Below are positions 28,374 to 58,799 of a stretch of 64,000 bases of DNA, piece after piece. Each line of letters starts with the position of its first letter. The stretch's first letter is position 1. The notes under the pieces were generated by a model that was not told the origin of the DNA, did no database searches, and saw only the letters and a list, made by a program, of their open reading frames with translations. The position numbers and the translations under genes are program-made. The stretch is from Oscillospiraceae bacterium. Its GTDB lineage: Bacteria > Bacillota > Clostridia > Oscillospirales > Acutalibacteraceae. Location: NCBI GenBank assembly GCA_015066015.1, contig SVPE01000009.1:1-64000 (forward strand), read 5' to 3'.

Positions 28374-28499
28374 GCTTGAAAAAATAATATAAAAGCTGCG
28401 CCGAAAGGTTAAAAGCATCCCCATGTTGCTCATTATAACATCGTTAAAGACTTTTTCAGTTGTATCATCAGTAACTTTCTTAGTCAAGAATCAAAAAGC

Positions 28500-28528
28500 A
28501 AACCCTGTCCATATAACGGACAGGGTTG
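28500..28528. repeat. left 29-bp direct repeat: complete terminator stem-loop
   Basis: AAACCCTGTCC and GGACAGGGTTG arms flank an ATATAAC loop. The 29 bases are identical to 28773-28801. On the minus strand this copy is followed by CTTTTTG, i.e. it retains the U-tract of the Fn3-protein terminator. Confidence 0.9.
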
Positions 28529-28772
28529 CAGCTTGTCGAAAAGTATTTTCGACAAGCTGTCGGACTGTTGAGAAAGGTGCAAGATGCCTTTTTCTTCGCC
28601 CCGAAGGCGTACAGTGGTACTCCGAGAGGGCGAAAAAATGGCAAAACAATGCAAAAATGGTCGGGATTCGATGTCCTGACCATTTTTCTTTGTAGTTTTT
28701 CTTTTAATTTTTTATCGACGTTCTTTAAGTGTTTCTGTGCATTGTTGTTCTTGTGACTTTATCGACAGTCTG
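28529..28772. mobile_element. MITE-like unit inserted in a terminator, copy 1
   Basis: This 244-base element has a 32-base palindromic head (CAGCTTGTCGAAAA / TTTTCGACAAGCTG, 28529-28560). A 212-base unit follows (28561-28772), starting CGGACTGTTGAG and ending ATCGACAGTCTG. The ends form terminal inverted repeats of about 12-15 bases (CRGACTGTYGA). Inside lie a strong hairpin with AAAAATGGTC/GACCATTTTT arms and a CGCCC/GGGCG stem. The same 244 bases recur at 58321-58564 with only a few changes, and the 212-base unit recurs again at 58566-58777. No transposase is encoded, so it would move in trans. Confidence 0.8.
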
Positions 28773-28801
28773 AAACCCTGTCCATATAACGGACAGGGTT
28801 G
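28773..28801 (-). terminator. right 29-bp direct repeat: terminator stem-loop beside the Fn3 protein gene
   Basis: The stem is AACCCTGTCC/GGACAGGGTT. It lies 20 bases beyond the stop of the minus-strand Fn3 protein gene. On the plus strand it is followed by GTTTTTTTG; on the minus strand its U-tract has been displaced by the inserted element. Confidence 0.8.
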
Positions 28802-28821
28802 TTTTTTTGTCAGCTATTATC

Positions 28822-58203: not shown

Positions 58204-58298
58204 CGTTACCTCGCATTTTAGTCATTGATTTCATATTATCATACAGGACTTTTTCTGTCAAGAAACAAGTTATCCCTCATTGCTTACCGCTGAAAAAA

Positions 58299-58320
58299 GC
58301 ACCGCAAAACTGCGGTGCTC
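58299..58320 (-). terminator. left 22-bp direct repeat: displaced terminator stem-loop
   Basis: AGCACCGCA and TGCGGTGCT arms form the hairpin. The 22 bases are identical to 58778-58799. On the minus strand this distal copy is the one followed by the U-tract TTTTTTC. Confidence 0.88.
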
Positions 58321-58564
58321 AGCTTGTCGAAAAGTATTTTCGACAAGCTGTCGGACTGTTGAGAAAGGTGCAAGATGCCTTTTTCTTCGCCCCGAAGGCG
58401 TACAGTGGTACTCAGAGAGGGCGAAAAAATGGCAAAACAATGCAAAAATGGTCGGGATTCGATGTCCTGACCATTTTTCTTTGTAGTTTTGTTTTTAATT
58501 TTTTATCGACGTTCTTTAAGTATTTTTGTGCATTGTTGTTCTTGTGACTTTATCGACAGTCTGA
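58321..58564. mobile_element. MITE-like unit inserted in a terminator, copy 2
   Basis: These 244 bases have the same length and order as the unit at 28529-28772: the 32-base palindromic head (58321-58352), then the 212-base unit starting CGGACTGTTGAG and ending ATCGACAGTCTG. Differences between the two loci are a handful of substitutions. Confidence 0.82.
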
Positions 58565-58565
58565 C

Positions 58566-58777
58566 AGACTGTTGAGAAAGGTGCAAGATGCCCTTTTCTT
58601 CGCCCCGAAGGCGTACAGTGGTACTCAGAGAGGGCGAAAAAATGGCAAAACAATGCAAAAATGGTCGGGATTCGATGTCCTGACCATTTTTCTTTGTAGT
58701 TTTGTTTTTAATTTTTTTCGACGTTCTTTAAGTGTTTCTGTGCATTGTTGTTCTTGTGACTTTATCGACAGTCTGAG
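58566..58777. mobile_element. MITE-like unit, copy 3 (tandem, without the palindromic head)
   Basis: A second 212-base unit follows one base after the first, starting CAGACTGTTGAG and ending CGACAGTCTG. Its end octamers CAGACTGT and ACAGTCTG are perfect inverted repeats, which defines the true ends of the mobile unit. The inner AAAAATGGTC/GACCATTTTT hairpin is conserved. Confidence 0.82.
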
Positions 58778-58799
58778 CACCGCAAAACTGCGGTGCTTT
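58778..58799 (-). terminator. right 22-bp direct repeat: terminator stem-loop next to the GH3 gene
   Basis: The hairpin lies six bases beyond the stop of the GH3-type gene, but the bases following it on the minus strand are now CAGACTGTCG of the inserted element instead of a U-tract. Termination is probably shifted to the distal copy at 58299-58320. Confidence 0.8.

Follow-up and report, generated by a model that had tools for sequence, protein, structure and literature searches.

We show by sequence comparison that the MITEs described here, and the autonomous elements of one clade of the IS1182 family, mostly lie between direct copies of a whole hairpin that is specific to each locus, and that two empty alleles carry one copy. 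The MITE was very probably mobilised in trans by an IS1182-family DDE transposase with CAGnYTGT-like ends, which would strike an extruded hairpin and duplicate it whole. We also think it rather probable that this DDE clade reads the fold of its target as a ruler, joining at the two 5' feet of a cruciform, so that duplications would range between about 20 bp and 47 bp or more and usually comprise one whole hairpin.

Anatomy of the unit in the window

The window is the whole 64,000-nt stretch that was analysed, from contig SVPE01000009.1 of an Oscillospiraceae bacterium. The original prediction placed in it a 244-base unit with terminal inverted repeats between identical 29-base terminator hairpins, with T-tracts on the outer sides only, and the sequence confirms this (locus 1, Table 1). 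The two identical copies of the 29-nt hairpin AAACCCTGTCCATATAACGGACAGGGTTG start 273 nt apart and enclose exactly 244 bp (28529-28772); an A-tract precedes the left copy and a T-tract follows the right one, each on the outer side. A terminator scan calls both copies outward, the left on the minus strand (28527-28501) and the right on the plus strand (28774-28800). The left end of the unit is a 31-nt palindrome, H31, whose outer arm is similar to the right terminal repeat. Like a MITE, the unit is without a transposase gene and multi-copy in its own genome; the sole frame of at least 80 aa over it (90 aa, 28423-28695) was treated as chance. Its internal hairpin differs in the stem from copy to copy and from species to species; the loop TTCGATG often persists, though not in every copy.

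Table 1. Features of the two MITE insertions in the window
Feature	Position	Strand	Remark
Locus 1, A-tract beyond left hairpin (T-tract for leftward transcripts)	28493..28497		minus-strand terminator scan
Locus 1, left copy of 29-nt terminator hairpin	28500..28528		
H31, 31-nt palindrome at MITE left end, 14-bp arms and 3-nt loop	28529..28559	+	
Inner left terminal repeat CGGACTGTTGAGAAAGG	28561..28577	+	1 nt after H31
Structured core, long stem with compensatory changes between species	28578..28652	+	
Internal terminator-like hairpin with A/T tails, loop TTCGATG	28653..28687		
Right terminal repeat CTTTATCGACAGTCTG (read outward, CAGACTGTCGATAAAG)	28757..28772	+	
Locus 1, right copy of 29-nt terminator hairpin	28773..28801		
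Locus 1, T-tract following right hairpin	28802..28808	+	
Locus 2, left copy of 22-nt terminator hairpin, different from that of locus 1	58298..58319		
Locus 2, H31 and two tandem units (58352-58563 and 58565-58775), 1-nt spacer	58320..58775	+	
Locus 2, right copy of 22-nt hairpin	58776..58797		

A second MITE insertion in the window (58298-58797) has its own 22-nt hairpin on each side and holds a tandem array. In this array and in those at L005, L008, L016 and L064, the second unit is without H31, is joined through a 1-nt spacer and starts at the inner left terminal repeat.

Folded as RNA, the 244-bp unit reaches -100.2 kcal/mol, where shuffled versions average -57.9 (z -9.45). An alignment of 22 core sequences, to which a second MITE family contributes two, supports a 15-pair structure in which 95.4% of cells pair, with a covariation score reached by none of 500 shuffles; two weaker measures, six pairs changed on both sides and 14 further pair types, were reached by 14 and 84 of 500 shuffles, respectively. 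The core structure is either constrained or has been passed on with compensations. A search of Rfam assigned it to no family at the thresholds used, the three matches listed (E 0.13 to 0.8) each lying below the gathering score. The second MITE family occurs in the same genome (L031-L044; for example L034:1968-2062), and the structured core is common to both families. Its ends, GGGGTTGTTGCATTAAG, resemble those of GGGGCTGT-type IS1182 elements, so that two sets of ends accompany one core.

Flanking repeats of MITE copies

A BLAST search with the locus 1 stretch against its own genome returned 63 matches, 21 of them with E 1.1e-58 or better, and across 59 genomes including its own there were matches in at least 25 genomes and at least 2 of 26 genera. 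Among the loci fetched, a script recognised 69 sites with an H31-like end, 51 of which also had a recognisable right end; the two-sided test set comprised 50 sites with sufficient flank, from 10 genomes of one genus. At 40 of these 50 the left flank repeats the right, with a score above 5.0, the 99.5th percentile of 2450 mismatched flank pairs. The score exceeds the control maximum of 21.0 at 28 sites; that maximum came from the mismatched pair L161/L191, a probable exchange pair, and the next-highest control scored 8.5. The 40 sites divide into 36 with whole locus-specific hairpins (34 by automatic criteria, plus L171 and L185, which have weaker stems), two with partial hairpins and two without a hairpin. 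Other copies had been expected to show flanking hairpin duplications as well, and a whole hairpin at 36 of 50 sites, or 37 when L166 with its matching stems is admitted, together with the two partial cases, bears this out. Within the genome of origin, 11 of 13 two-sided sites pass the flank-repeat test, nine with whole and two with partial hairpins.

We called a hairpin strong when it exceeded the 95th percentile of 1000 shuffled flanks. By this measure 43 of 50 left ends of the element, and likewise 43 of 50 right ends, have a strong hairpin no more than 3 nt away. The repeats measure 22-30 nt, their length tracks the span of the hairpin (r 0.82 over 34 clear sites), and the feet of the hairpins are the ends of the repeats. 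An outer T-tract, counted as at least six T among the 12 bases that span the outer end of the hairpin, accompanies 38 of 43 right copies; of 1150 control 12-mers taken further out, 241 reach this count. The left copies have an A-rich outer side in 36 of 43 cases, and 11 of the 43 also have at least six T in 12 bases on the inner side.

Between the two hairpin copies of a site, loops diverge far more than stems (differences at 15 of 149 loop positions and 11 of 699 stem positions over 34 sites), as if selection kept both stems. At three sites the flanking loops are mutually reverse-complementary: AAC/GTT at L003, GGC/GCC at L023 and GA/TC at L111. We considered these inversions as a sign of mechanism; since loops diverge far beyond stems, substitution could also produce a perfect inversion in a handful of loops this short.

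The ungapped flank-repeat test is failed by 10 of the 50 sites. At L166 the stems match and the loops are unequal in length; at L012 and L024 the left side is damaged; and at L153, L173, L175, L178 and L179 the left and right hairpins are different, for which exchange between copies could be the cause. L161 and L191, both in genome G030, have flanking hairpins A/B and B'/A', which look like the pattern left by reciprocal exchange (recombination) between two MITE copies. Among the 40 sites that pass, the repeats at L057 and L180 lack a hairpin and measure 9 and 11 bp, and the right hairpin copy is partial at L005 and L016.

A candidate mobiliser in the IS1182 family

The MITE was most likely mobilised by one transposase clade of the IS1182 family, that with CAGnYTGT-like ends. 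The genome of origin (91% complete, 42 contigs) holds no intact CAG-clade transposase, only a short IS1182-family relic (NCBI model, 40 profile positions, E 3.6e-4), whose 47 aa are 55% identical to a member of the clade; the classical IS1182 domain PF13751 has no match there. The end of this relic, CAGACTGTCGAAAAAG, adjoins a terminator hairpin and is matched by the MITE end CAGACTGTCGATAAAG. L050 was examined as an autonomous copy and rejected, as the stretch holds host genes and the relic. Within the genus, CAG-ended relatives occur in G000, G007, G023 and G029, the last with a fragment whose 293-aa open frame is 73.6% identical to a clade member. The transposase with matching ends that the original prediction looked for is thus found among CAG-ended IS1182-family elements.

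End types were examined at 60 loci (1, 30 and 29 from three search sets; first set, 22 loci). A first grouping sorted 38 elements into 17 with CAG ends, 14 with GGGGCTGT, four with xxCTGTTGACAAA and three with CACTGAAAAA. When the other 22 loci were rechecked, L126, L254 and L265 proved CAG-ended on both sides and L120 and L128 at the left end only, with 17 left unplaced. The same whole hairpin stands on both sides of 15 of the 19 two-sided CAG-ended elements (L106, L107, L108, L110, L111, L112, L126, L254, L255, L256, L257, L259, L260, L263 and L264); at L265 it is only partial on one side, and at L104, L105 and L261 the hairpins differ between sides. For 21 elements with other ends, inspection of the flanks showed no shared whole hairpin, L113 having a left flank of 2 nt only. 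The MITE and the autonomous CAG-ended elements therefore have the same target and the same type of duplication, with whole-hairpin repeats in most copies of each.

In a tree of 38 transposases, in which L115 was flagged as a long branch and other long joins occur, the 17 CAG-ended sequences fall on one side of a branch with support 88/56, present in 92% of 200 bootstrap trees; the same branch has support 100/100 after L105 is dropped. The transposase P0002 scores 403.5 bits with the curated model NF033551 (cut-off 270) and contains PF05598 and PF13751, which assigns the autonomous partners to the IS1182 family. With NF033593, which we take to be the model covering IS1202, it scores 86.1 bits, below the cut-off of 325 for an ISNCY/IS1202-type assignment.

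Duplication length, empty alleles and the target's fold

A DDE transposase normally makes target duplications of one fixed length. A comparison of identical elements in Enterococcus departs from this and is the strongest single result of the analysis. A 1517-bp element, identical over its full length at L283, L288 and L289/L291 (the last two being one site), is flanked by direct repeats of 27, 47 and 21 bp, respectively, and each repeat is the local palindrome to within one base at either end. One enzyme thus makes duplications of different lengths, set by the target. Two close relatives of the element, L284 (96.9% identical) and L290 (94.8%), have repeats of 22 and 21 bp, and L287, annotated as ISEfa7 family, has a 21-bp repeat with 7-bp palindromic arms.

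Empty sites had been expected to carry a single hairpin. In an exact pair of alleles from Enterococcus plasmids, a 22-nt hairpin occurs twice in filled L284 and once in empty L285, with 400-bp flanks that are 99.3% and 99.5% identical; this is not the outcome of IS1272-type insertion, in which the hairpin is removed without duplication. L286, a further empty allele, corresponds to the L283 site; it too holds a single hairpin copy, with one base different. Among 60 listed records (356 with any match), the two flanks form one uninterrupted stretch in 14; its length, 1165-1176 bp, is what a single hairpin would give, and one of the 14 was read in sequence. The three duplication lengths of the 1517-bp element, together with the one-hairpin empty allele, argue that it is the target's fold that sets the length.

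A further site concerns the MITE itself. The insertion L023 in the genome of origin directly follows a gene that, by the reading of its product, looks like a putative rubrerythrin; of 34 genomes in the genus, 32 have a match to this gene. The element is absent from the site in all 13 relatives reported, and 10 of the 13 have a predicted hairpin following the gene. These hairpins differ in sequence, so the relatives' sites are not exact parental alleles.

The original prediction of a mechanism that recognises terminator hairpins and duplicates them whole gains support from the 36 MITE sites, the empty alleles and the CAG-ended elements; nothing favours the copying route it also named over DDE transposition with gap repair. 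In the mechanism we propose, a CAG-clade transposase would strike a target extruded as a cruciform (or paired hairpins), and gap repair would copy each hairpin, making the duplication as long as the hairpin. Bidirectional terminators would contribute T-tracts on both outer sides, so that each copy could still terminate in its outward direction and insertion would do little harm; we infer from anatomy alone that termination is preserved after insertion. Whole-hairpin duplication by this mechanism appears well supported at the level of sequence.

It is very improbable that the enzyme has a fixed stagger of about 25 bp and merely prefers palindromic DNA, in the manner of other IS families with long fixed duplications. 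The MITE repeats would suit such an enzyme, as most fall in a narrow range at the 34 clear sites, but their ends are the feet of hairpins, and the identical 1517-bp copies have repeats of three lengths, each equal to the palindrome of its site. Insertion between terminators that were already doubled, or recombination joining two elements, would involve no target duplication at all and could account for sites with unlike hairpins, such as L153, L178, L179 and L161/L191. We find this scarcely credible, given one hairpin in each of the empty alleles L285 and L286, 14 contiguous records of single-copy length, and the missing element at the rubrerythrin site in every relative reported.

The state of the target when it is struck is a separate matter. 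Structure-specific transposition could act on single-stranded hairpins, at replication forks or in transcription bubbles at terminators, in place of extruded cruciforms. Terminators undergo transcription, single strands fold easily into hairpins, and a single-stranded target could leave the same sequence mark as a cruciform; we regard this as unlikely, if far from negligible, because direct duplication requires joins to both strands at opposite feet, which is simplest with a cruciform given DDE chemistry and the model in PMC5678879.

Joining at the feet of an extruded cruciform is the reading we favour. The 21-47 bp range for an identical element, always equal to the palindrome of the site, points to recognition of DNA shape. 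A mobile element can in this way colonise terminators with a terminator left on both sides, and whole-hairpin duplications would be natural marks by which cruciforms or hairpins in the DNA of living cells could be scored. If the fold does serve as a ruler, insertion into terminators would be nearly harmless, and a pathway so far encountered only as a drawing would be realised naturally, as a sister to the hairpin-removing mode of IS1272.

The direct repeats recorded in ISfinder for IS1182-family elements vary widely. Hairpin targeting by this family is already known, and the duplication of a whole hairpin with a length set by structure is new as far as our searches reach. IS1272 and TnSha1 resemble the present elements in having an IS1182-family transposase, in inserting at inverted repeats and terminator hairpins without a common target sequence, and in the extra left terminal repeat of some copies (PMC5678879, PMC4923244). 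They differ in that IS1272, an IS1182-family element of Staphylococcus, is reported to replace the hairpin without duplication (PMC5678879) and TnSha1 to delete it partly (PMC4923244), whereas the MITE and the CAG clade duplicate it whole. With removal by IS1272 and duplication by the CAG clade within one IS family, the two modes are directly comparable. Duplication of the whole hairpin is drawn as pathway b of the model by Wan et al. (PMC5678879); we found no report of it as an observed outcome in the literature searched.

Among other relatives, the staphylococcal ISSau3 and ISSep1 match a GGGGCTGT-type query at about 31% identity and are absent among the best 25 of 1703 records listed for a CAG-type query. 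The Enterococcus element studied here is about 76% identical at the DNA level, along some 1430 bp, to ISEfa7 and related Enterococcus IS1182-like elements; we found no description of the target mode of ISEfa7 in the literature searched. Like other bacterial MITEs, the present ones are short, non-coding and multi-copy, with terminal repeats matching a full IS. Unlike them, they have a left end with an added palindrome, a core that covaries, and a duplication that is a whole hairpin rather than a few bases.

A different arrangement is seen at L109, where an IS1182 element with GGCGCTGTTGACAAA ends lies inside a hairpin loop, flanked to left and right by the loop bases ATTTT. It resembles pathway c (loop duplication) of the model in PMC5678879.
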